Origin: Vibrio ezurae NBRC 102218
Lineage (GTDB): Bacteria > Pseudomonadota > Gammaproteobacteria > Enterobacterales > Vibrionaceae
NCBI RefSeq assembly: GCF_000467185.1
Contig: NZ_BATM01000044.1
Span: 1-64,000, forward strand
Reading direction: 5' to 3'
Length of the DNA stretch: 64,000 nt
The position numbers and the translations under genes were made by a program. The notes beneath the pieces were generated by a model that ran no database searches, had not been told where the DNA came from, and saw only the letters and a program-made list of their open reading frames with translations. Position 1 is the stretch's first letter. Each line of letters starts with the position of its first letter. Shown in pieces: positions 50,114 to 64,000 of the stretch.

Positions 50114-51619
50114 TTACTTGGTAAGGCGAGGAATATCCTCTTTTAGAATAGTGAATACAGCTAGGTGTTTACGTTGATTTCCAGCAACATAACGTATTTG
50201 TAGGCTATTGTTTTTAGTAGAGCCATCTAGCGTAGCTAAAACTGTTTCGGGTACATCAATACTGATTAGATCTTGTTCATTTGGACGTTGATTTAATGTA
50301 TGAGATAACCATGCGGTAAGATCATTGTCTCCTGATACTTCGATTTGGTAGTTAAGTGCATCGTCCCATAAATCAGTATTCGTCAAATTAAACGAAATAT
50401 TAATGCCATCGTTTTCACCTTCCGCAATGGTGATATCTTTGAATTGAGCATGATTGATCACGCTTTCTTGCTCAGAATCATAACCTGGTGTCGATAGTGT
50501 AAATGTTGCTTTATACCATAAGTGGTCTGAGACAAAATCACGTTCTTCGTATGTCGGTTCTCCATGTTCGTTGACATGCATGCCAGAGTGTTTTTCATCC
50601 CATTGATAAGTATCATCTTCACCATGAGGCCCAGGGAAGTAAGTTTTAATTCTTGGTCCAATTAGTGAGGCATCTACTAACTCAATATCTTCAGCGTTCG
50701 CATTGTAGTAAATGAAATCAATACGATCACGGTCGTCTAATCCTCGACCACACTCATTGACGTATGATGCACCTTGTGTCCAACTATCATCTATATGGAA
50801 TGGCCAAGTTGCTCCCATATTGGTTGCAGGATCAGGATAGAGATGACGATAGCTGTCAGTATATCCTGCGTCCAGAATGCGTCTATGAGTCATAAAGTCA
50901 TGAACCGTTCCTTTTCGATCATACATATTGGCTGTATCTTCAGTCCAATCTAGTCCAGAGGCTTCGTTTAAGTCGCCACCGAAAATGATAACTGCATTAT
51001 TTTCAAGGTAAGGGGATAGCTGTTCAAGCATGTAACTAGCTTGACGTGGGCGGTATGATTGAAGATTTAATGCATCAAGATCTTCTTGGCTAGTGATCGG
51101 GAGACAGCCGGCATGAGCTTGCCATGTTATACCGTTCCCACCTCTTGCATCGTAAGTGATATAGCGTGTGTAATCTAAGTGATTTGAAAAGACAATAACG
51201 TCACGTCCATTGACATCAAGGACAGCACCAATATTTCCACCATATTCATTATGGGCATCAATGGTATTTTTTATAGGATGCTTAGACAAGATCCCAACAC
51301 TTCCAACACTATTATTTCCATGGTAATAGTGCATACCAAGTCGCTCTGCCATTCTTGCTGTTATTCCAGTCGCTTCTTGGAAAAAAATAATGTCTGCATT
51401 GGCATGTTGAAGTTCTTTTACGGCAACCTCAAACGAACTAGTATCATTGAAATCTCGATATAAATTTTGCCACATATTGGCAGATACTATGTTTAAAGTA
51501 GTAGTGTAACTTTCTGGAGGAGTGATCTCAGGAGCCGATGTATTGTTATTATCGTTGCTATCGTTACACCCAACTAGTAGAGCGGATAGTAGAAGGGGGA
51601 CGTACAGTTTATTGTTCAT
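50114..51619 (-). CDS. endonuclease/exonuclease/phosphatase-fold lipoprotein
   Basis: 501 residues from ATG 51619; the lipoprotein signal MNNKLYVPLLLSALLVGC gives cysteine 18. The EEP-fold active-site residues can be followed: asparagine in IVSANMWQNL, glutamate in FFQEATG, histidine in SNHLDYTRY, aspartate and asparagine in GGDLNEASG, aspartate in DRIDFIYY, and the terminal SDHLWY pair. A beta-sandwich domain fills the C-terminal about 120 residues. It is probably a surface or periplasmic phosphodiesterase or nuclease. More AT-rich than the TonB cluster, and its stop lies seven bases from the palindromic repeat. Confidence 0.88.
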   Translation of the reverse strand: MNNKLYVPLLLSALLVGCNDSNDNNNTSAPEITPPESYTTTLNIVSANMWQNLYRDFNDTSSFEVAVKELQHANADIIFFQEATGITARMAERLGMHYYHGNNSVGSVGILSKHPIKNTIDAHNEYGGNIGAVLDVNGRDVIVFSNHLDYTRYITYDARGGNGITWQAHAGCLPITSQEDLDALNLQSYRPRQASYMLEQLSPYLENNAVIIFGGDLNEASGLDWTEDTANMYDRKGTVHDFMTHRRILDAGYTDSYRHLYPDPATNMGATWPFHIDDSWTQGASYVNECGRGLDDRDRIDFIYYNANAEDIELVDASLIGPRIKTYFPGPHGEDDTYQWDEKHSGMHVNEHGEPTYEERDFVSDHLWYKATFTLSTPGYDSEQESVINHAQFKDITIAEGENDGINISFNLTNTDLWDDALNYQIEVSGDNDLTAWLSHTLNQRPNEQDLISIDVPETVLATLDGSTKNNSLQIRYVAGNQRKHLAVFTILKEDIPRLTK

Positions 51620-51902
51620 GATGATGCCTTTAAAGGGAATGAATTCAGGCACTGATATTAATCATACAATATGACGGCAATAACGATTCTTCGGTTAGAT
51701 TAATTTAGCTTGAGGTATAGATTTTATTAAATGAAACGTCATTGATTGGTCACATATTGGCTCACTACTATAATCCTGAGTTAAATCATGCGATTTTCAA
51801 AAATTAATTAAATGGCCTTAATTAGTTAAAAAATTTGCCTCACTTATCGTATCTTGATAAGTTCCACTTTATAGGCGTACCACTGACCTCTACGGTAAAA
51901 CA

Positions 51903-53546: not shown

Positions 53547-53861
53547 ATGAGAATTTTTTTATGTTGTTCAGCCGGTATGTCCACAAGCATGTTGGTTAAA
53601 AAAATGAAAGAGTCAGCAGAAGAGCGGGGAATTGATTGCACTATTGATGCCTTCTCAATATCAGAATTTGAAACGCACTTAGCACAAAATGATGTTTGTC
53701 TTGTTGCTCCACAAGTGAAGTTTAAGTTTAACGATTTCAAAGCTCGTGCCGACTCCGAAGGTAAAGGATGCGGGCTTATTGAAATGGCTAATTACGGGAT
53801 GATGAACGGTGAGTTAGTGCTTAACCAAGCTATCTCGCTTTACAACACTAATAACCAATAG
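53547..53861 (+). CDS. PTS IIB component, lactose/cellobiose family
   Basis: 104 residues from ATG 53547 (MRIFLCCSAGMSTSML), where AGGA lies eight bases upstream; the ATG nine bases earlier overlaps that site. The phosphorylated cysteine is C7 in CCSAGMS. The typical VCLVAPQVKFKF follows. It receives phosphate from IIA and passes it to the sugar on IIC. It is first in the operon. Confidence 0.93.
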   Translation: MRIFLCCSAGMSTSMLVKKMKESAEERGIDCTIDAFSISEFETHLAQNDVCLVAPQVKFKFNDFKARADSEGKGCGLIEMANYGMMNGELVLNQAISLYNTNNQ

Positions 53862-53869
53862 GATTAATT

Positions 53870-55195
53870 ATGTCACTATTTAATAACGTGATGAATTTTG
53901 TTGAAAATACCGTATCGCCCATTGCCGGTAAAGTATCAACACAAAGGCACATCAATGCAATTAAGGACGGGTTTGTCGCTACAATGCCATTCTTAATTGT
54001 TGGCTCTTTGCTTCTAGTTCTAGCATTTCCTCCAGGAAAAGGTAATTTTTTCCTAGACGGATGGCACTCACTGGTTGAGTTCATTGGTATGGGTAATATT
54101 CTTGCGCCATTCCAACTTAGCATGGGGATATTTGCACTGTATGCCTCTTTTAGTATCGGCTTTAGCTTAGCCGAATCTTATGGTCTACGAGCATTGAACT
54201 CTGGCCTGTTATCGATGTTCACTTTTCTTTTAGCTGTCGCACCGGTTGAATTTATCGATATTGGCGGGATTATGCCCATCGCGAATATGGGTGGAACTGG
54301 GGCTTTTACTGCTATTATGGCCGGTTTATTTGTACCCGAACTTCAACGTTTGTTGCGTGATAAAAATATTCGATTAAAACTTCCAGATGCCGTACCACCA
54401 AAGATTGCGGCATCTTTTGATTTACTTATTCCTATTATTATCGTCGCGATATTAGTTGTTGGGATTAATGTATCGCTAGGGAAGTTTGATTTAAATATTC
54501 CTTCTGCTGTTATGGCTATTTTTAGCCCACTTGTATCTGCGTCCGATTCATTTTTTGCCTGTCTTATCGCTGTAATTATCATTCAATTACTTTGGTTTGG
54601 CGGAATTCATGGATCTTCAGTTGTTGTCAGCGGCATCCTTTATCCCATCTTAATTATTAACCTTGGTCTCAATCAAGAAGCTCTAGCTGCGGGTACAGAA
54701 TTACCCAAAATATTCGTTAATCCACTTTTAGATTTCTTCATCTTTGTTGGAGGAGCTGGTGGTACTTGGGGCTTCGTTGTTCTAATGATGCGCTCACGTT
54801 CAACACACTTAAAAACGATAGGCCGAATGTCAATTATCCCTGGCACATTCAATATAAATGAGCCCGTGATATTTGGTGCACCTATTGTAATGAATCCTAC
54901 TTATTTCATTCCTTGGATGCTTTCTCCAATCGTCAATACCTGCATTGTGTGGCTTGCGTTTAAAACTGAATTTGTATCAAAAATCATTTCATTACCACCT
55001 TGGACAATGCCTGCACCTATTGGCGCTGTTATTGCTACCAATTCTGGTACGGCTGCAATAGTGGTTGCTTTATGCGTTGTTGTCAGTGTCGTCATTTATT
55101 ACCCGTTCTTCAAGATTCATGAAAAGCAGCTCTTGGCTGAAGAGAACATCATCGAAGATGCAGAACCTAAATCCCCTCAATTCGCTAAGGCATAA
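53870..55195 (+). CDS. PTS IIC membrane component, CelB family
   Basis: 441 residues with about ten membrane segments. The family stretches GFVATMPFLIVGSLLLV, WFGGIHGSSVV and IPGTFNINEPVIFGAPIVMNP, the last bearing the sugar-binding glutamate, are present. The length matches lactose/cellobiose IIC. The substrate is unknown. No 6-phospho-beta-glucosidase gene accompanies it, which argues against ordinary cellobiose or chitobiose. Confidence 0.94.
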   Translation: MSLFNNVMNFVENTVSPIAGKVSTQRHINAIKDGFVATMPFLIVGSLLLVLAFPPGKGNFFLDGWHSLVEFIGMGNILAPFQLSMGIFALYASFSIGFSLAESYGLRALNSGLLSMFTFLLAVAPVEFIDIGGIMPIANMGGTGAFTAIMAGLFVPELQRLLRDKNIRLKLPDAVPPKIAASFDLLIPIIIVAILVVGINVSLGKFDLNIPSAVMAIFSPLVSASDSFFACLIAVIIIQLLWFGGIHGSSVVVSGILYPILIINLGLNQEALAAGTELPKIFVNPLLDFFIFVGGAGGTWGFVVLMMRSRSTHLKTIGRMSIIPGTFNINEPVIFGAPIVMNPTYFIPWMLSPIVNTCIVWLAFKTEFVSKIISLPPWTMPAPIGAVIATNSGTAAIVVALCVVVSVVIYYPFFKIHEKQLLAEENIIEDAEPKSPQFAKA

Positions 55196-55197
55196 AT

Positions 55198-55539
55198 ATG
55201 ACTTTTAGTATTAATTCTCAAAATGACATTACCGAAGAATTTTTGATGTCACTACTTTGCTCTGCCGGAGAAGCTCGTTCGTCGGTAATGGCAGCGATGG
55301 CTTCAGCTCAAAAAGGTGATTTTGAACAGGCTTCATTGTTCATTGATACCGCTGATAAAGCTCTAACAGAAGTTCATAAAACTCAAACGACGTTAATAGG
55401 GTATGACGAAGGTGTTGGCAAAGTCAGCATGACTTTAATTCTAACGCATATTCAAGACCACATTATGACAGCGATGCTCTGCAAAGATTTGGCGTTAGAA
55501 ATCATAGCTATTCACCGAAAGTTAGGAGATTTGAAATGA
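55198..55539 (+). CDS. PTS IIA component, lactose/cellobiose family
   Basis: 113 residues, a three-helix protein. The phosphoryl histidine region is THIQDHIMTAML with H84 as the likely phosphorylated residue. SLLCSAGEARSSVMAAMASA matches the family's first helix. The stop overlaps the next gene's start by four bases (ATGA). Confidence 0.93.
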   Translation: MTFSINSQNDITEEFLMSLLCSAGEARSSVMAAMASAQKGDFEQASLFIDTADKALTEVHKTQTTLIGYDEGVGKVSMTLILTHIQDHIMTAMLCKDLALEIIAIHRKLGDLK

Positions 55540-56426
55540 ACAAGCGCATTTTCGATTTAACCCGTACTGATATCGATACGATGAACCGAAAAGATATTCT
55601 CGATTGTATTGCTCGCTCAGAAGGTAGGGCAATGATGGTTGAAAATGTTGTATCTATGCAACCCCCTGTTGATCTGGTTTCCGGAGCTGAATTAGCAGCA
55701 GCATTTGGAGCTGACATGATCACTTTAAATTGCCTCGACATCTTAAAACCGGAAGCCGTAATTACCGGTGCCCTAAATCATGGTGTAGCCCCAACATGTA
55801 ACATTCAGGAGCTTAAAGAACTATCAGGTCGACTGATGGGATGCAACCTTGAACCTGTTCCTGAAGGATTCAGTGATATTGAAATAGGTCGCTCTGTGAC
55901 AAGAGAAACGATAGAGGCTCTTGTTGCTAGTGGTCTTCATTACGTGATGTTAACAGGAAACCCTGGAATGCAAGTTTCTCAAGAGACCATCTTGAATGCC
56001 ATATCACTTGTTCGAGAAATCTCAGAGGACATTGTCATTATTGCTGGAAAAATGCATGGCGGTGGTATTGGTAACGATTACAACTTAGACATTATCCCTC
56101 AGTTTGCAGCCGCTGGTGCTGACATCATGATGTTTCCTGCTCCTTATACCACCCCAGGAGTAACACCTGAAATAGCCTACCAAATGATGAGTGAAGTGCA
56201 TCGAGCTGGAATGCTCGGACTATTAGCTATTGGCACATCACAAGAAGGGGCATCAGAGAGCTTTATAGAGCAAGTCGCTTTAGCTTCCAAAGGGGCTGGA
56301 GCAGACATAGTTCATATCGGTGACGGTGGATATGGTGGTTTAGCACCACTGGAGAATATCTTCCGTATGGGCATGACTATTCGCGGTAAACGCCATCAAT
56401 ACAAACGAATGGCGAATCGCCGCTAA
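55536..56426 (+). CDS. TIM-barrel protein coupled to PTS, DUF7916-like
   Basis: 296 residues predicted as an alpha/beta barrel: AELAAAFGADMITLNCLDIL, HYVMLTGNPGMQVS, IVIIAGKMHGGGIG, AAAGADIMMFPAPYTTPGVT, LLAIGTSQEGAS and GADIVHIGDGGYGG. The last glycine-rich loops resemble phosphate-binding sites of phosphosugar barrels. I recall related proteins beside lactose/cellobiose PTS genes under the name DUF7916, with no proven activity. Translational coupling to IIA suggests that it acts on the imported phosphorylated sugar, perhaps as an aldolase, epimerase or hydrolase (inference). Followed by AT-rich sequence and the porin gene. Confidence 0.8.
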   Translation: MNKRIFDLTRTDIDTMNRKDILDCIARSEGRAMMVENVVSMQPPVDLVSGAELAAAFGADMITLNCLDILKPEAVITGALNHGVAPTCNIQELKELSGRLMGCNLEPVPEGFSDIEIGRSVTRETIEALVASGLHYVMLTGNPGMQVSQETILNAISLVREISEDIVIIAGKMHGGGIGNDYNLDIIPQFAAAGADIMMFPAPYTTPGVTPEIAYQMMSEVHRAGMLGLLAIGTSQEGASESFIEQVALASKGAGADIVHIGDGGYGGLAPLENIFRMGMTIRGKRHQYKRMANRR

Positions 56427-56497: not shown

Positions 56498-57628
56498 ATG
56501 TTAAAGAAAACACTATTAAGCACTCTTGTTGGTGCAGCTATCATTACCGCTTCAGGATCAGCACTTGCTTCTTCAGAGCTTACAGATAAATTTGAAATCT
56601 ATGGACAAGTCGCTGTATCTGTATGGCAATTTGGTGAAGATAAAATTAATACCGGTGAACAGCCTATTCAGGTAGAAAATGAATCTCGTATTGGTGTACG
56701 CGGAGACGTGGATTTAACTCGAGGACCAAATCTTTTTTGGCAACTTGAAGGTGGTAATGTCGGGGATGCGGGTCAGAACTCAGGTCTTGGTGTGCGAGAT
56801 ACTTTTGTTGGTATTAACTTTGAAGATGGTGGGAAAATTCGTTTAGGCCGATTACTTACCCCTTTGTACCAAATGATTGATTGGCCTTATTCGGGTCAAC
56901 GTGCAGGTGCTGTATTTGATTGGGGAGGCGATATTGTTGGCAATACCAATTATGATCGTCAATCCAATATGATTCGCTATGACTCTGCGGAAAGAAGTGG
57001 ATTTAAATTTAGTTTAGCGGGGGGACGTGGTACAGAAAGTGATGCTGGATCTAACTTTATTGGTGCGGGTGCACATTTAACCAAAGGTAACATTACCATT
57101 AATGCCGGCGCAGAATATGGTGTAGATCGTCAAGTTAGTGCCAATGCAGATTTATATGATAAGTGGTTGTCTCAACAACCAGGAAATAATCCCACATTTA
57201 ACGATGTTGAAGGTCAAACTAAATCTGACACTCAAGCGTACTTACTTGGATTTGAAGCTGATGTAACAGATGACTTTCAATTATATGGCGCAATCAAATA
57301 CCAAAAAGCAGTTTATGAAGATGCAACCTTTACCGTCGATGGCGTAGATGTTGAAATTAAAGATCTTGAGCTTGATCAAGGCAGTTACTCAGTAGGAGTT
57401 GTCTATAGTGGATTTGAGCATTGGGTTCTGAAAGCGAATTATGCAGCTAACTTAGATGTAAAATCGAGTGGTACAACCATTCATGGAACTGCGGACTCAA
57501 TCATCTCAGCTCAGGCGTTGTACTTCCTCAGCGATAGTGCTTTAACTTATGTTCGACCTTATGTTATTGATCAAAACGACTCTGGGTATGAATTTGGTTG
57601 GGGGGCTGGTGTAGAGTATTACTTCTAG
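56498..57628 (+). CDS. general porin, OmpU/OmpC-type
   Basis: 376 residues with signal peptide MLKKTLLSTLVGAAIITASGSALA. A 16-strand porin pattern runs through FEIYGQVAVSVWQFG, GVRGDVDLTRGPNLFWQLEGG, RDTFVGINFEDGGKIRLGRL, with the terminal aromatic GWGAGVEYYF needed for barrel insertion. Placed between the PTS and yhf genes with AGGAAAAT as its ribosome site, it probably supplies outer-membrane passage for the same substrate (inference). It ends at a strong terminator. Confidence 0.93.
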   Translation: MLKKTLLSTLVGAAIITASGSALASSELTDKFEIYGQVAVSVWQFGEDKINTGEQPIQVENESRIGVRGDVDLTRGPNLFWQLEGGNVGDAGQNSGLGVRDTFVGINFEDGGKIRLGRLLTPLYQMIDWPYSGQRAGAVFDWGGDIVGNTNYDRQSNMIRYDSAERSGFKFSLAGGRGTESDAGSNFIGAGAHLTKGNITINAGAEYGVDRQVSANADLYDKWLSQQPGNNPTFNDVEGQTKSDTQAYLLGFEADVTDDFQLYGAIKYQKAVYEDATFTVDGVDVEIKDLELDQGSYSVGVVYSGFEHWVLKANYAANLDVKSSGTTIHGTADSIISAQALYFLSDSALTYVRPYVIDQNDSGYEFGWGAGVEYYF

Positions 57629-57712
57629 TTCCTAGTACATGTCTGTTAAGACACAACAGAGCATGTAACTTTGAATCCTAACATGGAACATTGAACATTA
57701 AGTATTGGTTCA

Positions 57713-57746
57713 CCAGTGACTCAAAAAAGGGTCACTGGTTTTTTTA
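57713..57746 (+). terminator. terminator after porin gene
   Basis: CCAGTGAC (57713-57720) and GTCACTGG (57731-57738), followed by TTTTTTTATC. It separates the PTS-porin transcript from the yhf-like transcript. Confidence 0.95.
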
Positions 57747-57857: not shown

Positions 57858-58760
57858 ATGGCGAATAATTTTATTAAAAAACATGGTGTAGCATTAATAC
57901 ATATTTCACGTTATTTACTAACCGTCAAACCACATGACAGGCTACGAACTATCGATGAATTATCCGCTGAATTAGGGTGCTCTGTGGGTTACATTGCAAC
58001 CGCTATAAAAAAAATTGAGGCTGAAGGTGCTGTCACTTTAGATCGCCGTGGACGCAACGGTACTTTTATTTCAAATTTAGATTATTGCCAGCTAATTCGA
58101 TTAGCTGAATTTGGCAATATGGTATGTGCTATGCCGCTACCTTACACCAAACATTACGAAGGATTAGCGTCAGGATTAAAAGCACAGATAAGTGTCCCTT
58201 TTTATTTTGCGCACATGCGCGGGGCTGATGTTCGTGCTGAATGTTTAAAAAATGGCATATATGACATTGCTATTATGTCTCGATTAGCAGCAGAGCATTA
58301 TGTTGCTTCTGGTGATTTAGATATAGCACTAGAGCTTGGTCCAAATACCTATGTATCAGAACACAGATTAATTTGTCGACAAGGCGAACTACATAATATT
58401 AAGCGTGTTGGTGTTGATCCTTCATCACCGGACCAAAAGCTACTGACTGAAACATACTTTAAAAATCAAAATGTTGATATTGTCGAAGCTCCATATAATG
58501 AATGCCTTGAATTAATTGCCAACAATACTATTGATGCATCAATTTGGTATTTATCAGACAACGAACGGCTTACTTCTATGGGATTATCAGCTGCATCAAT
58601 CAGTCATGTTCCTGATTGTGAAAAAGCGTCTTCGGCTGTATTAACAGTGAGTAAAAAGGCGCAGCACGTTAAGATTTTAATTGACCATATGGTGGATACC
58701 AACAACTTATTACAACATCAAAATGATGTTGTAACCGGTAAAGTAATACCAACCTATTAA
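57858..58760 (+). CDS. yhfZ: YhfZ-like HTH regulator
   Basis: 300 residues, the length of E. coli YhfZ. N-terminal winged helix (RLRTIDELSAELGCSVGYIATAIKKIEAEGAVTLDRRG, residues about 28-66), then a periplasmic-binding-like effector domain with ECLKNGIYDIAIMSRLAAEHY and ELIANNTIDASIWYLSDNE. It begins the yhf transcript, 16 bases before yhfY, and is the natural regulator of the cluster. The effector is unknown. Confidence 0.88.
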   Translation: MANNFIKKHGVALIHISRYLLTVKPHDRLRTIDELSAELGCSVGYIATAIKKIEAEGAVTLDRRGRNGTFISNLDYCQLIRLAEFGNMVCAMPLPYTKHYEGLASGLKAQISVPFYFAHMRGADVRAECLKNGIYDIAIMSRLAAEHYVASGDLDIALELGPNTYVSEHRLICRQGELHNIKRVGVDPSSPDQKLLTETYFKNQNVDIVEAPYNECLELIANNTIDASIWYLSDNERLTSMGLSAASISHVPDCEKASSAVLTVSKKAQHVKILIDHMVDTNNLLQHQNDVVTGKVIPTY

Positions 58761-58776
58761 TTGAGAAATATAGATT

Positions 58777-59136
58777 ATGCATGAAAGAATGACCTTACTA
58801 CTTAATTCGGGAGTGATTAGCCCAAACGCACACCTAGGTGCTATGACTGCGATTAAAACGCTTAATGATGAGTGGGCGCTTTGCACTGATAACGAACAGT
58901 TCCAAATGGCGATGACTCACCTTGCGAGAGCAATTGATAGAATCAGTGACAATGAGGCAATAAAAGATGGGCTTGACCCAACGGTAATGGATGAAATTAT
59001 TTCAGATGCTGCTTTTCCTGAAATCATAGAAATGAATGAAAAAATTTGTCGTGGCGCAGGGCTTGTAGAGGTGCCAGTGACTGAGGATAGCTTTTTCATT
59101 TGTAACTTATTCTCTCTTTATTTAGCTAGCCATTAA
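58777..59136 (+). CDS. yhfY: YhfY-like PRD-domain protein
   Basis: 119 residues forming one PTS-regulation-domain-like helical bundle (MTHLARAIDRISDNEAIKDGL). It carries a single likely PRD histidine (H49 region). It has no DNA-binding domain, so it may report PTS phosphorylation to YhfZ (inference). Between yhfZ and php, spaced 16 and 10 bases. Confidence 0.85.
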   Translation: MHERMTLLLNSGVISPNAHLGAMTAIKTLNDEWALCTDNEQFQMAMTHLARAIDRISDNEAIKDGLDPTVMDEIISDAAFPEIIEMNEKICRGAGLVEVPVTEDSFFICNLFSLYLASH

Positions 59137-59146
59137 GGGACATATT

Positions 59147-60037
59147 ATGCCTATAAATGAAAGTGGTTATACGTATTGCCATGAGCACCTCCACATCGAC
59201 CTGTCAAAACAAAAAGGGGACGATGATTGCAAACTGGATCAGTTTGAGTTGATTAGTGCTGAGCTAAAAGCACTTAAAACACGTGGCGTTTTTAACATCG
59301 TAGAAGTCACCAATAAATTTATGGGCCGTAATCCTCAATTTATTGAAGCTTTAACAAAAGAAACACAGATGAATATTCTCTGTTCAACAGGGTTTTATAT
59401 TGAAGGTTTCTTTCCAAACGCGCTAAAGCAAATGTCTGTGGTTGATATAGCCAAAACAATGATTCACGAAATTGATAATGGTATTGACGATAGCAATTTA
59501 CGTGCTTCGGTAATTGGAGAGATCGGTAGCAGTCACAATGTGTTTACTGATACAGAACGCAAAGTATTTGAAGGGGCAGCGATTGCTCATTTAGAAACGG
59601 GTTGCCCAATCTCAACGCATACCTCATTTAGCACTATGGCTAAAAGCCAAGTAGAACTTCTCAGAAATATGAAAGTAAATCTTAACAATGTCTCTATTGG
59701 GCATTGTGATTTGCGGGATAACTTTGACGATATTCTTTGGTTACTTGATCAAGGGTGTTATGTCCAATTCGATACCATTGGTAAAAATGACTACTACCCA
59801 GATGCCAAGCGAATCGCCGTTATTGACTCTCTTATCCGTCGTGGATACGCAGATCGAGTGATGCTTTCAATGGACATTACTCGTAAATCACACCTTAAAG
59901 AAAATGGAGGACTTGGGTTTTGTTATTTAATTGATCACTTCGTCCCCATGCTTCTTGAGCGAGGAATACAACAACAATATATCGACCTCATGCTTAAACA
60001 TAACCCCGCCAACTTTTTTGGCACAACACAAAAATAA
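59147..60037 (+). CDS. php: Php (YhfV), phosphotriesterase-homology metallohydrolase
   Basis: 296 residues, close to the 292 of E. coli Php. The amidohydrolase metal ligands are visible: HxH as H12 and H14 in TYCHEHLHID, glutamate in VIGEIGSSHN (in place of the carboxylated lysine of true phosphotriesterase, as in PHP), histidines in STHTSFSTMA and IGHCDLRD, and aspartate in MLSMDITRKSH. It is a cytoplasmic TIM-barrel hydrolase; the natural substrate is unknown. Confidence 0.93.
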   Translation: MPINESGYTYCHEHLHIDLSKQKGDDDCKLDQFELISAELKALKTRGVFNIVEVTNKFMGRNPQFIEALTKETQMNILCSTGFYIEGFFPNALKQMSVVDIAKTMIHEIDNGIDDSNLRASVIGEIGSSHNVFTDTERKVFEGAAIAHLETGCPISTHTSFSTMAKSQVELLRNMKVNLNNVSIGHCDLRDNFDDILWLLDQGCYVQFDTIGKNDYYPDAKRIAVIDSLIRRGYADRVMLSMDITRKSHLKENGGLGFCYLIDHFVPMLLERGIQQQYIDLMLKHNPANFFGTTQK

Positions 60038-60049
60038 TAAGGTAGAAAA

Positions 60050-60409
60050 ATGAAAACTATCGCAATTGCTGGTTTACAACGTGAACAAATTAAAGAACAG
60101 ATTGAAACAGCGGCACCGGGTGTCTTCACTTGCTTCATTCTTAGTGACATAGATGCAGCCATGAAAGTGAAGTCGGGTGAAATTGACTATTACATTGGTG
60201 CTTGTAATACAGGGGCTGGCGCCGCGTTATCTATGGCCATTGCCATCATTGGATACAATGAATCTTGCACAATCGCAAAACCTGCTTTCCAAGCAAAAGA
60301 AGAAGAAATTCAGACATTTATCAGCGAAGGTAAAAAGGCATTCGGATTATCAATTGAGCACGTCGAACATGCTGTTCCAATGCTAGCGAAACAACTGGCT
60401 AAGGTGTAA
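60050..60409 (+). CDS. yhfU: YhfU-like DUF2620 protein
   Basis: 119 residues with a Rossmann-like outline: MKTIAIAGLQREQIKEQIE, DYYIGACNTGAGAALSMAIAI and EEEIQTFISEGKKAFG. Function unknown. It always seems to accompany yhfT; here the two are two bases apart, suggesting a transporter-linked soluble subunit similar in outline to a PTS IIB (inference). Confidence 0.88.
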   Translation: MKTIAIAGLQREQIKEQIETAAPGVFTCFILSDIDAAMKVKSGEIDYYIGACNTGAGAALSMAIAIIGYNESCTIAKPAFQAKEEEIQTFISEGKKAFGLSIEHVEHAVPMLAKQLAKV

Positions 60410-60411
60410 TT

Positions 60412-61716
60412 ATGGATATAATGAATATAGCGCTCATCGCGACACTTTGTGCAATGACCGCTCTAATCGCAAATATGAGTGCGGCTGTTTTTCATGATGG
60501 GATTCGTCCCATCCTCCCTCAGGTCATAGACGGACATATGAAAAGGCGTGATGCAGGCTCTGTTGCATTTGGTCTTTCTATTGGCTTTGTGGCTTCGGTA
60601 GGGATTTCATTTACGCTTTCAACGGGTTTGTTGAATCCGTGGTTATTGTTCTTGCCGACCGACATTATCGGTGTCATGGCGGGCAGTCGAATCATTGCTG
60701 CAATTGGTGGTGGTATCTGGGGAATCCTAGTTGTCACAAGTCTGGCTGGTGTAAATGCAGTATTAACGGGATTACCAATAGACGCATTGGGTGCGCTTGG
60801 AGAGCTAGGGACACCAGTCATGTCTGCATTTGCATTGTTCCCGTTATTAGCCATTTTCTATCAATTTGGTTGGAAAGCAGGGGCAATATCAGCGGTTGTG
60901 ATTCTTGTGTCACGATTGTTAGTGGTTAAATATACAGGCATTTATCCAGAATCAATTCAAATTTTTGTTGGGATGGTGATGCTGATTAGCATTGCTATTC
61001 GAAAAGATATTAAAGATAAAGCCAATGGCATTGTCCCTCCTGATATGAGCGGTTTAACGGGCTTATTTGAAGAGCGAACTAAACGCATTTATAAAAACAT
61101 GCCATTTCTAGCCATCACTGGCGCTCTTATTGCCGCCGCCGCCGCATCAGGTATTTTTGCTGGCTCAGAAGTCTCTATTTATGCATTAGCCGATGCTTAT
61201 AAGATTACAGATCCTATTGCTCATAAAGAAGCAATGAATCAAGTTGCCTTATCGGAGTTTATGCGTGGTCTTGGGTTTATTCCATTGATAGCAACCACCG
61301 CCTTAGCAACTGGTGTCTATGGTGTGGTCGGTATGACCTTTGTGTTTGTAGTCGGGTATTTATCACCTAATGTACCAGTGGCCGCAGTACTGGGTGCTAT
61401 TACTATTTGTTTAGAGATATTGCTACTTCGTAATATTGGTCGCTTTTTAGAGAAGTTCCCGTCGATTCGTAATTCGTCAGATAACATCCGAAATAGCATG
61501 AATACCTTAATGGAGTTCGCGTTATTAATTGGTGGTGTATTAGCGGTTATGAAAATGGGTGGAACAACCGGGTTTACCATTTTCGCCATCTTGTACTTCT
61601 TAAATGAAGTTATGGGTCGACCGGTACTTAAGATAGCTGCGCCTGCCGTCGCTGCAATTTTAACGGGTGTTGTTCTGAACTTATTGTTTGTGGTGGGTAT
61701 GTTCGCACCTATTTAG
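60412..61716 (+). CDS. yhfT: YhfT-like membrane transporter
   Basis: 434 residues, exactly the length recalled for E. coli YhfT, with about ten to eleven hydrophobic segments (VAFGLSIGFVASVGISFTLS, GVMAGSRIIAAIGGGIWGIL, LITGALIAAAAASGIFAG-like). An early charged motif FHDGIRPILPQVIDG is probably a cytoplasmic loop. It is likely to move the pathway substrate or product across the inner membrane. No standard transporter family is assigned with confidence. Confidence 0.87.
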   Translation: MDIMNIALIATLCAMTALIANMSAAVFHDGIRPILPQVIDGHMKRRDAGSVAFGLSIGFVASVGISFTLSTGLLNPWLLFLPTDIIGVMAGSRIIAAIGGGIWGILVVTSLAGVNAVLTGLPIDALGALGELGTPVMSAFALFPLLAIFYQFGWKAGAISAVVILVSRLLVVKYTGIYPESIQIFVGMVMLISIAIRKDIKDKANGIVPPDMSGLTGLFEERTKRIYKNMPFLAITGALIAAAAASGIFAGSEVSIYALADAYKITDPIAHKEAMNQVALSEFMRGLGFIPLIATTALATGVYGVVGMTFVFVVGYLSPNVPVAAVLGAITICLEILLLRNIGRFLEKFPSIRNSSDNIRNSMNTLMEFALLIGGVLAVMKMGGTTGFTIFAILYFLNEVMGRPVLKIAAPAVAAILTGVVLNLLFVVGMFAPI

Positions 61717-61915: not shown

Positions 61916-63052
61916 ATGTTCTTAAATGCACTAACAAAACAGAACCCAGAATTAATTAACGCAGCCTTAGAACTTCATCAGCAAGGTGTGATTCTTCCTG
62001 ATACCTATGTCGTTGATGTTGAGCAGTTTACTCAAAATGCCAAGCGAATAAAAAGTGAAGCGGATAAGAACAGCATCAAACTGTATGGGATGACAAAACA
62101 GTTTGGACGTAACCCTTATCTAGCGAGAATTTTAATAAACTTAGGTTATGAAGGGATTGTCGCCGTTGATTATAAAGAAGCTCGAACGCTGCACAGCGCA
62201 GGTATAAAAATATCGCATGTTGGACACCTAGTTCAACCGCCGACGGCCATTCTTAAAGAGCTTATTGAAGAAATAAAGCCTGATGTTATTACTGTTTACA
62301 CATTGGCTAAAGCTCAAGCTATTTCGAATATGGCGTTAAATGCCGGACGAGTTCAAAAAATATTATTAAAATTCTTTGATGAAGGTGACCACCTTTATAT
62401 TAACCAAGAATCAGGTTTTCCGATCGATACCTTAGACGAAGTATTGGAAGAAGTATCTAATATGCAAGGGGTTAAGATTGAAGGTTTAACTCACTTTCCT
62501 TGTTTTCTGCACAACAACGGAGAAACAACCTTAACACCTAATTTCCATACCCTGATAAAAGCCAAAAACAATATTGAAGAAATGGGCATTCAGTTGAATC
62601 AAATCAACTCACCGTCATCAACAAGTTGCGAGACCCTCCCAACTCTTGGACGTTTTGGGTGCACACATGGTGAGCCTGGGCATGCATTAACAGGAACCAC
62701 CCCTGCTAATCAAAATGGCACGACCTCAGAAAAGGTAGCCATGCTATATCTATCTGAAGTCTCTCACGACTTTAATGGACAGTCGTATTGCTATGCCGGA
62801 GGTTATTACCACCGCGGACACTTATCAAATGCCATTGTGAATGATGAATGGGTGGAAGTGAGCAACGATGACGACTCCAACATAGATTACCACCTACGAC
62901 TGCATGGGCTATTTCCTGTAGGAGCTCCTGTGATCATGGCTTTTAGAACACAAGTTTTTGTCACGAGAAGTGATGTGGCGTTGGTCGAGGGGATTTCTGA
63001 TGGCAAACCCAAGCTTATCGGTCTCTATGATTCATTAGGTCGGGAGATTTAA
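61916..63052 (+). CDS. yhfX: YhfX-like PLP-dependent alanine-racemase-fold enzyme
   Basis: 378 residues. N-terminal alanine-racemase-type barrel with the PLP lysine expected in KLYGMTKQFGRNPYLA (residues about 54-69). Further barrel strands are IVAVDYKEARTLHSAGIKI and KIEGLTHFPCFLHNN. The C-terminal beta domain contains LGRFGCTHGEPGHALTG. It is like E. coli YhfX (about 387). It probably racemises or otherwise acts on an amino acid or amino-acid-like group. Its stop lies one base before the yhfW start. Confidence 0.9.
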   Translation: MFLNALTKQNPELINAALELHQQGVILPDTYVVDVEQFTQNAKRIKSEADKNSIKLYGMTKQFGRNPYLARILINLGYEGIVAVDYKEARTLHSAGIKISHVGHLVQPPTAILKELIEEIKPDVITVYTLAKAQAISNMALNAGRVQKILLKFFDEGDHLYINQESGFPIDTLDEVLEEVSNMQGVKIEGLTHFPCFLHNNGETTLTPNFHTLIKAKNNIEEMGIQLNQINSPSSTSCETLPTLGRFGCTHGEPGHALTGTTPANQNGTTSEKVAMLYLSEVSHDFNGQSYCYAGGYYHRGHLSNAIVNDEWVEVSNDDDSNIDYHLRLHGLFPVGAPVIMAFRTQVFVTRSDVALVEGISDGKPKLIGLYDSLGREI

Positions 63053-63053
63053 T

Positions 63054-64000
63054 ATGCCACGTTTTATAGTCGTTGTACTCGATGGGTTTGGGGTCGGTGA
63101 AATGCCGGATGTTGCAGTGGTTCGCCCGCAAGATAGAGGGGCGAATACGGCGTGTAAATTAATGAATCATTTCCCTCATGATTCTCTACCCACATTAGAA
63201 TCACTTGGTCTGGTGAATATTACGGGAACCAAGGTGCCTTCAATGAAAGCGAATGCATTCGCCAACGTCGGAAAAATAATGCTTGAACATGAAGGTGGCG
63301 ACACCTTTATGGGGCATCAGGAAATTATGGGCACCAAGCCAAAATCCCCCCTTATTAAGCCATTTAAAGAGTCCATAGATCTTATAGAGCAGGCATTATT
63401 GAATGCAGGCTGCTCCGTAGAACGAATGTGTAAAGATGGACTTGAATTGCTGCTTGTAAATGAATGCGTAACAGTCGGCGATAATCTTGAGGCTGATTTA
63501 GGGCAGGTATATAACATTGCAGGGAACCTTAACCAGATAACCTTTGAAAGCCTGCTTGATATTGGAAAGGTTGTCCGCCGTAATAATTGCGTGGCCCGTA
63601 ATATCGTATTTGGGGGTAATTTAAGCTCTTCATCTCAACTATTGGATGCGATAGAAACTAAGGGTTCGACTTATATAGGTGTGAGTGCGCCAAAATCTGG
63701 TGTTTATGACCGCGGATTTCAAGTCATGCACTTGGGGTATGGCGTTGATACTAGCAAACAAGTGCCAGCGCAACTTCATCAAGTCGGTGTTAAAACGACG
63801 TTGATCGGTAAAGTGGCCGATATAGTGGGTAATGAATCTGGTACTAATTATATGCAAATGGTCGATACCACGAAGATAATGGACAAAGCGGCGGCTGAAA
63901 TTAAGGAAAACAGTGACGGGTTTTTCTGTATTAATATTCAAGAAACCGATTTGTCTGGTCATCAAGAAGATCCCCTGCGTTACTGGGAGACTTTGAAGAA
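63054..64000 (+). CDS. yhfW: YhfW-like phosphopentomutase-family enzyme, cut by window end
   Basis: Starts at ATG 63054 and stays open to base 64000 (315 codons seen; E. coli YhfW is about 408). The alkaline-phosphatase superfamily start is MPRFIVVVLDGFGVGEMPD with the metal aspartate. The phosphopentomutase-style threonine region is GGDTFMGHQEIMGTKPKSP, and further on come LIGKVADIVGNES and INIQETDLSGHQEDP. It would move a phosphate within a sugar or similar molecule. It is coupled to yhfX. The missing yhfS may follow outside the window. Confidence 0.92.
   Translation, partial: MPRFIVVVLDGFGVGEMPDVAVVRPQDRGANTACKLMNHFPHDSLPTLESLGLVNITGTKVPSMKANAFANVGKIMLEHEGGDTFMGHQEIMGTKPKSPLIKPFKESIDLIEQALLNAGCSVERMCKDGLELLLVNECVTVGDNLEADLGQVYNIAGNLNQITFESLLDIGKVVRRNNCVARNIVFGGNLSSSSQLLDAIETKGSTYIGVSAPKSGVYDRGFQVMHLGYGVDTSKQVPAQLHQVGVKTTLIGKVADIVGNESGTNYMQMVDTTKIMDKAAAEIKENSDGFFCINIQETDLSGHQEDPLRYWETLK

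Follow-up and report, generated by a model that had tools for sequence, protein, structure and literature searches.

A DUF7916 barrel protein encoded with a Lac-family PTS in Vibrio ezurae: a possible NanE-like enzyme of sugar-phosphate metabolism

Introduction

Which enzyme acts on the sugar phosphate brought in by a Lac-family phosphotransferase system (PTS) when no phosphoglycosidase is encoded with it? This question is raised by a locus of Vibrio ezurae NBRC 102218, lying in a stretch of 64,000 nucleotides of contig NZ_BATM01000044.1 that was analysed as a whole and is here called the window. The IIA gene of this locus is joined to the gene of a protein of family DUF7916, which is already a Pfam family, although no mention of this name was found in a literature search that was not exhaustive. 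DUF7916 proteins are found among Vibrionaceae and elsewhere in the order, as well as on numerous Enterococcus plasmids, and carry two misleading names in public records.

A comparable arrangement was reported in 2012, when a pneumococcal island with a Lac-family PTS was described as containing a hypothetical protein annotated as PEP phosphonomutase-like, whose HHpred matches include IMPDH, GMP reductase and NanE at more than 99% (PMC3283741). This pneumococcal PTS-linked protein, which carries one of the public labels of the family, may be a DUF7916 member and, if so, the family is also present in an island tied to virulence in mice. Because of this earlier HHpred remark (PMC3283741), the idea of a relationship to NanE is not new; what is new is the register shift in the NanE alignment, the survey of Vibrionaceae, the co-occurrence with GH1 and GH4 and the link to the yhf genes.

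The PTS-DUF7916 locus

The features of this region are listed below, with identities to the E. coli K-12 proteins.

53547..53861, + strand: PTS Lac-family IIB (PF02302), 69 bits, cut-off 23.6
53870..55195, + strand: PTS Lac-family IIC (PF02378), TIGR00410 lacE subfamily 353.9 bits, cut-off 236
55198..55539, + strand: PTS Lac-family IIA (PF02255), 94.1 bits
55536..56426, + strand: DUF7916 (PF25509) barrel protein, 4-base overlap with IIA
56498..57628, + strand: outer-membrane porin (PF00267), 27.1 bits, cut-off 23.7
57712..57739, + strand: terminator-like hairpin, 11 pairs and a T run, consensus match only
57858..58760, + strand: yhfZ regulator, NF041241 357 bits, cut-off 260; 48% to YhfZ
58777..59136, + strand: yhfY-like protein, 29% to YhfY; no Pfam match
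59147..60037, + strand: php, phosphotriesterase family (PF02126), 53% to Php
60050..60409, + strand: yhfU (DUF2620), 71%
60412..61716, + strand: yhfT (PF10797), 62%
61916..63052, + strand: yhfX, 53%, in K-12 'putative PLP-binding protein'
63054..64000, + strand, continuing beyond the window to 64265: yhfW, 54%, in K-12 'putative mutase'

Separate IIA, IIB and IIC genes, all of the Lac family, define a Lac-family PTS and are found in the window (for IIB the start at 53547 was chosen for the scan, 53538 also being allowed by the ORF caller). IIC passes the lacE subfamily cut-off but lies below the cellobiose equivalog cut-off of 434 and also below those for lactose and chitobiose, hence the substrate cannot be named from IIC. 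In the initial annotation the barrel protein was described as translationally fused to the PTS. The IIA ORF (55198-55539) ends with a TGA stop at 55537-55539, and the barrel ORF (55536-56426, + strand, 296 amino acids) begins with an ATG at 55536-55538, giving a 4-base ATGA overlap, with a Shine-Dalgarno-like TAGGAG within the 3' end of the IIA gene upstream of the barrel start. The overlap thus stands, but with separate ORFs IIA and the barrel are two proteins and not a fusion; they are probably translationally coupled. Among 36 IIA-barrel junction rows, which include the same locus more than once, ATGA is found at eight and GTGA at two.

The porin gene begins 71 bases 3' of the DUF7916 gene and probably shares a transcription unit with it and the PTS genes. 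The hairpin at 57712-57739 may end this unit before yhfZ; such terminator-like hairpins are no commoner in the region than by chance (three found versus 3.6 in shuffles). The closest named locus is that of Vibrio halioticoli NBRC 102217, with 99% at the protein level, and the locus is also present on the V. halioticoli record AP024877 (244 kb) in the plasmid collection. Elsewhere in the window, a 512-aa ORF on the - strand (50114-51652) has a lipoprotein-like start and endonuclease/phosphatase-like motifs, as judged by eye.

The absence of a phosphoglycosidase, claimed initially for the operon, extends to the whole genome as far as GH1 and GH4 are concerned, neither PF00232 (GH1) nor PF02056 (GH4) having any match in it; among 14 control genomes the GH1 model matches in seven and the GH4 model in six. 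No glycosidase is encoded among the genes scanned between 53.5 and 64 kb, and GH20, besides GH1 and GH4 the sole glycosidase family searched genome-wide, is represented by two copies elsewhere in the genome. The genome encodes NagA (487 bits, cut-off 226) and holds no NanE over the cut-off (one weak match), so that an enzyme supplying NagA with GlcNAc-6-phosphate would be plausible in this organism.

Membership and spread of DUF7916

The window protein matches DUF7916 with 342.5 bits against a gathering cut-off of 27, over 1-292 of 296. This is the sole family over its cut-off; no match was obtained to GH1 or GH4 profiles, to NCBIfam at E 0.01 or in a PDB sequence search at E 1. In overlapping samples, the genomes with DUF7916 over the cut-off number 41 of 247 for Vibrionaceae (42 at E 0.001), 11/295 for the order (16 at E 0.001) and 5/398 for the phylum (6 at E 0.001), and the family is absent from all 14 control genomes. 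On plasmids, 221 of 72,556 records have matches, 187 of them from Enterococcus. E. faecium carries at least two forms, 41% and 36% identical to the window protein and with different neighbours. A nucleotide search of E. coli genomes with the window gene gave no match. The DUF7916 gene of an E. coli plasmid (L042) is present at 80% coverage or more on plasmids of 5 out of 5,426 E. coli genomes, with 25 more genomes matching; the ten partial matches listed retain no more than the final 21% of the gene, a pattern that would fit ongoing loss.

Public labels of these proteins read 'PEP phosphonomutase' or 'haloacid dehalogenase-like hydrolase'. Both identities were rejected in a Pfam scan, as the window protein has neither a PEP_mutase nor a HAD row at E 10; among 45 members, PEP_mutase is weak in two (best E 0.011) and HAD Hydrolase_3 is found in one (E 0.081).

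Predicted structure and kinship with NanE

AlphaFold2, with 39 sequences as input (six plasmid and phage-collection rows left out), predicts a (beta-alpha)8 barrel to which two helices are added at the N-terminus, at pLDDT 90.5 and pTM 0.91, and this confident model bears out the TIM-barrel assignment of the initial annotation. The two glycine-rich motifs noted there, GKMHGGG (171-177) and GDGGYGG (262-268), are present in the barrel protein. K172, G262, D263 and G268 are invariant in 49/49 aligned members, the window protein included, while G177 is kept in 48 and the glycines at 175-176 are variable; loop 175-179, just past Lys172, is the sole stretch with pLDDT below 50. In total 17 columns are invariant across the 49 members, several of them charged and some at strand ends. 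Invariant or near-invariant residues at strand ends are E36 (b1), N65/D68 (b2), N104/E106 (b3), T140-G141-N142-P143 (b4), K172 and H174 (b5), P201 (b6), S235-Q236-E237 (b7) and H260-D263 (b8). In phosphosugar barrels the loop after strand 8 is a usual phosphate site; the GDGG loop comes after strand 8 in the model and, by this analogy, may be a candidate phosphate site.

Comparison of the predicted fold by Foldseek and VIA returned many barrels with like scores and did not separate the families, Z being at least 8 in all 999 aligned chains. The Foldseek neighbours include YihT, a DeoC and, from M. jannaschii, the ADH synthase, and the VIA neighbours include MJ1099 (Z 16.9) and ADH synthase (Z 15.8). 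NanE is not among the 50 rows listed from either search, which excludes nothing.

Kinship with phosphosugar barrels, as initially proposed, is nevertheless supported by profile comparison, in which NanE is singled out. With the DUF7916 family profile against PDB sequences, NanE is first (E 0.0026) and carboxyphosphonate phosphorylmutase second (0.042). In hhalign with 19 E. coli barrels and eight other proteins, NanE obtains 84.6% and the next, TrpA, 18%; the E. coli barrels were compared as single sequences, and NanE alone was also given a family profile, of 11 sequences, which raises the match to 95.4% (pairwise E 1.9e-8, 123 columns). GuaC reaches 7.7% here, versus more than 99% for GMP reductase in the pneumococcal report (PMC3283741). 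The alignment places DUF7916 126-273 on NanE 39-164, two strands out of register, so that b4-b8 of DUF7916 lie on b2-b6 of NanE as its strands are read from the alignment. The catalytic residues of NanE are a lysine and a glutamate. HHalign sets Lys172 and the NanE lysine three columns apart, and the NanE glutamate lies outside the matched region; the register shift, the lysine offset and the lack of a counterpart for the glutamate count against a NanE-like reading. A circular permutation of NanE is not supported, as the best of 17 cut points gave 62.6 versus 62.2 for the native order, and moving segment 28-96 to the end gave 61.9 versus 62.0-62.3 in eight shuffled controls. In Pfam, NanE (PF04131) is not matched by the window protein even at E 10 and is weak in five of 45 members (best E 0.0038); PcrB is weak in nine (best E 0.0033), more than NanE, which also counts against a NanE-like reading, and Amidohydro_2 is found in six.

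Gene neighbourhoods in other genomes

The association with the PTS is seen well beyond the window, a Lac-type PTS gene being found within 5 kb of 35 of 49 Vibrionaceae copies, which is beyond chance. These copies are the full-length matches over the cut-off in 41 genomes, counting the two pieces in G235 as one and leaving out the sub-cut-off matches in G097, G047 (its second) and G204 (a short piece) and the partial G165:C1, and the survey looked for Lac-type relatives of the window PTS genes only. No such gene was found within 5 kb of the other 14 copies. Of the 40 copies that score at least 256 bits to the window protein, 35 have such a neighbour in this range, against none of the nine at 187-213 bits. 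The latter constitute a second Vibrionaceae form of DUF7916 (L045-L050, L081, L159, L160). A GH20 gene lies within 5 kb of ten of the 49 copies, and the one such neighbour that was scanned has 930 aa and an N-terminus resembling a signal peptide by eye. Flanks are shorter than 5 kb in five copies and shorter than 10 kb in nearly all, hence the counts for PTS (35), yhf (9) and GH20 (10) are lower bounds.

Some partners elsewhere point to amino sugars, each locus named here and in the next paragraph being a single example. In E. faecium, one locus (L043) reads GntR-SIS-LacD-DUF7916-IIC, in which the SIS protein, of the AgaS family, falls short of the model cut-off (417 versus 529 bits) and LacD passes its own; another (L086) reads beta-N-acetylhexosaminidase-GH2-GH84-DUF7916, the hexosaminidase being named from the record annotation. 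An E. coli IncK2/Z plasmid (L042) has a divergent GntR followed by IIBC-DUF7916, and this IIBC passes the curated GlcNAc-type cut-off (573.6 versus 553.2). G754 has IIC-DUF7916-IIB-IIA-ROK, and the NagC-like ROK of L108 scores 142.9 bits, far below the model cut-off of 650. Thus a GlcNAc-type IIBC, a NagC-like ROK, GH20, GH84, a hexosaminidase, an AgaS-family SIS and LacD are all found among the partners. The E. faecalis locus reads DUF7916-IIB-IIA-IIC-GH16-GH16, preceded by a divergent gene from the cluster to which the L108 ROK belongs. The large genes beside the L108 and L109 copies proved to be MetG, UvrD, GroEL and an RND pump.

Other partners are not amino-sugar genes. A Listeria-labelled contig (L088) carries RPE-like-148 aa ORF-DUF7916-IIABC-GH1, with IIABC of the bgl type; G766 (L111) carries DUF7916-IIC-nucleotidyltransferase-SIS-GntR-GH4-IIB; and G607 carries IIA-IIC-GFO/IDH/MocA-DUF7916-GntR, the GFO/IDH/MocA partner (at L078) not being an amino-sugar gene. 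The L088 GH1 scores 406 bits to the 6-phospho-beta-glucosidase model (cut-off 639) and the L111 GH4 198 bits to the alpha-galactosidase model (cut-off 486), and neither passes the NCBIfam cut-off for phospho-specificity. The 'UNVERIFIED' phage records L087, L088 and L089 hold bacterial-looking genes, in L088 a sugar operon, and are probably host DNA. The gene at L111:11811-13184, inside the PTS-DUF7916-SIS-GH4 cluster, resembles sugar-1-phosphate nucleotidyltransferases/hexapeptide acyltransferases, with a relative near the G011 copy in L071.

The yhf genes

YhfT was found in 35 of 247 Vibrionaceae genomes, and DUF7916 is present in 24 of these 35 versus 17 of the 212 others (odds ratio 25, p 2e-14 in a Fisher test that ignores kinship). 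Conversely, YhfT was not found in 17 of the 41 DUF7916 genomes, and in E. coli, as a control genome, YhfT occurs without DUF7916. Genes of the yhf set lie within 10 kb of nine of the 49 copies, and two of these nine, G000 and G128, belong to the V. halioticoli type. At locus L072 of G035, IIC, DUF7916, yhfZ, php, yhfU, yhfT, IIB and IIA follow one another on one strand from 11546 to 2187, and the clusters of yhfY, yhfX and yhfW are also represented in this block. At L066, L058 and L064 (G022, G101, G085), yhf clusters stand on both sides of PTS-DUF7916, giving two yhf sets. No function for the yhf genes was found in the literature search, again not exhaustive, and php has a match to phospho-furanose lactonase below the cut-off.

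Proposed function and its alternatives

The reading that we favour, although held tentatively and at somewhat less than even chances, is that DUF7916 is a NanE-like epimerase or isomerase of a PTS-delivered, probably amino-sugar, phosphate. The protein would be a cytoplasmic (beta-alpha)8 phosphosugar enzyme, distantly related to NanE, and its substrate would be the sugar phosphate brought in by the co-encoded PTS. Most likely it would epimerise or isomerise the 6-phosphate of an N-acetylhexosamine-type sugar, whether free or terminal in a short glycoside, by abstraction and return of a proton; the invariant Lys172, which ends strand 5, would presumably stand in for the NanE catalytic lysine. 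The product could then enter ordinary amino-sugar catabolism, with NagA in this genome and the AgaS-family SIS and LacD in E. faecium. The disaccharides usually transported by Lac-family PTS count against an amino-sugar-phosphate epimerase.

Alternatively, DUF7916 itself might split a phosphorylated disaccharide as the first intracellular step, by a chemistry unlike that of GH1 and GH4. This is consistent with the Lac-family PTS, with the absence of GH1 and GH4 from the genome, with compact PTS-DUF7916-regulator units such as L108 and with the failure of the GH1 and GH4 neighbours elsewhere to reach phospho-specific cut-offs. Clan GH-A glycosidases, however, need a carboxylate at the end of strand 4, where no conserved carboxylate is found among the 49 aligned members, and GH1 or GH4 is encoded in the same cluster at L088 and L111, while other relatives have the GlcNAc-type IIBC as partner or GH20 as neighbour; the GH1, GH4 and GlcNAc-type partners suggest that DUF7916 performs a step other than glycoside cleavage. 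Cleavage by DUF7916 is decidedly unlikely, and of the initial proposal the PTS link and the GH1/GH4 absence are supported, whereas replacement of a phosphoglycosidase is doubtful. The new enzyme class suggested there is conjectural, the family having a Pfam entry already and a PTS-linked pneumococcal protein of like label having been noticed in 2012 (PMC3283741). A lysine-dependent (Schiff base) aldolase or lyase acting on a ketose phosphate, like DeoC, LacD or YihT, would find a use for the invariant Lys172 at a strand end, and YihT, DeoC and ADH synthase in Foldseek and MJ1099 and ADH synthase in VIA are among the structural neighbours. Yet in class I aldolases of the DeoC/LacD type the Schiff-base lysine is on strand 6 and not on strand 5, the hhalign scores of fbaB, lsrF and yihT are low (1.7, 0.2 and 0.1%), and LacD is encoded beside DUF7916 in L043, making a second aldolase less likely there, so that this too is quite unlikely.

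It is unlikely, though less so, that DUF7916 carries out some other phosphosugar reaction, on a sugar that is not an amino sugar, in a pathway shared with the yhf enzymes. Here, the YhfT-DUF7916 co-occurrence, the nearby yhf genes in nine copies, sharing a strand with the IIC, IIB and IIA genes in L072, and the phosphotriesterase-family Php with its sub-cut-off lactonase match are set against the 17 DUF7916 genomes without YhfT, a statistic that ignores kinship, the hairpin that separates the two gene sets in the window and the E. coli genome with YhfT alone. Similarly improbable as a whole is a single catabolic route of PTS, DUF7916 and yhf genes, in which the strand-shifted, NanE-related barrel would rearrange a PTS-phosphorylated glycoside or amino sugar before Php, YhfW and YhfX act on it, with no phosphoglycosidase involved. 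A non-catalytic or regulatory barrel binding the PTS product would agree with the 14 copies lacking a Lac-type PTS gene within 5 kb, but the 17 invariant columns, with charged residues and strand-end positions among them, render it very improbable.

Comparison with known systems

With NanE (N-acetylmannosamine-6-phosphate 2-epimerase, PF04131), DUF7916 shares profile similarity over strands 4-8 and, three columns apart in hhalign, a lysine ending a matching strand, and it differs in the two-strand register shift, a longer N-terminus and the lack of a Pfam NanE match. The E. coli sgc operon likewise combines PTS genes with the unassigned SgcQ, of the BtpA family, and a putative epimerase, SgcE, as L088 has an RPE-like gene near DUF7916; SgcQ itself, compared as one E. 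coli sequence, reaches 0.9% against the DUF7916 profile, so that kinship is not supported. The pneumococcal island resembles the window in its Lac-family PTS and the associated hypothetical protein with a NanE match, and differs in having ROK, a sulfatase and a sulfatase-modifying factor, in place of which the window has the porin and yhf genes (PMC3283741). The yhf stretch of E. coli K-12 (yhfS to yhfZ plus php) has yhfS, for which no match was found in L080 or in the pool of DUF7916 loci, and shows neither PTS nor DUF7916; on the other hand, seven of its eight genes have orthologues in the window at 29-71% identity. Tying DUF7916 to the PTS, to the NanE-like profile and to the yhf genes would join two uncharacterised sets into a single pathway that can be tested, with a definite enzyme class to assay. 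If the PTS-DUF7916-yhf route is true, DUF7916 and the yhf operon of E. coli would both gain from it their first access to biochemical study.
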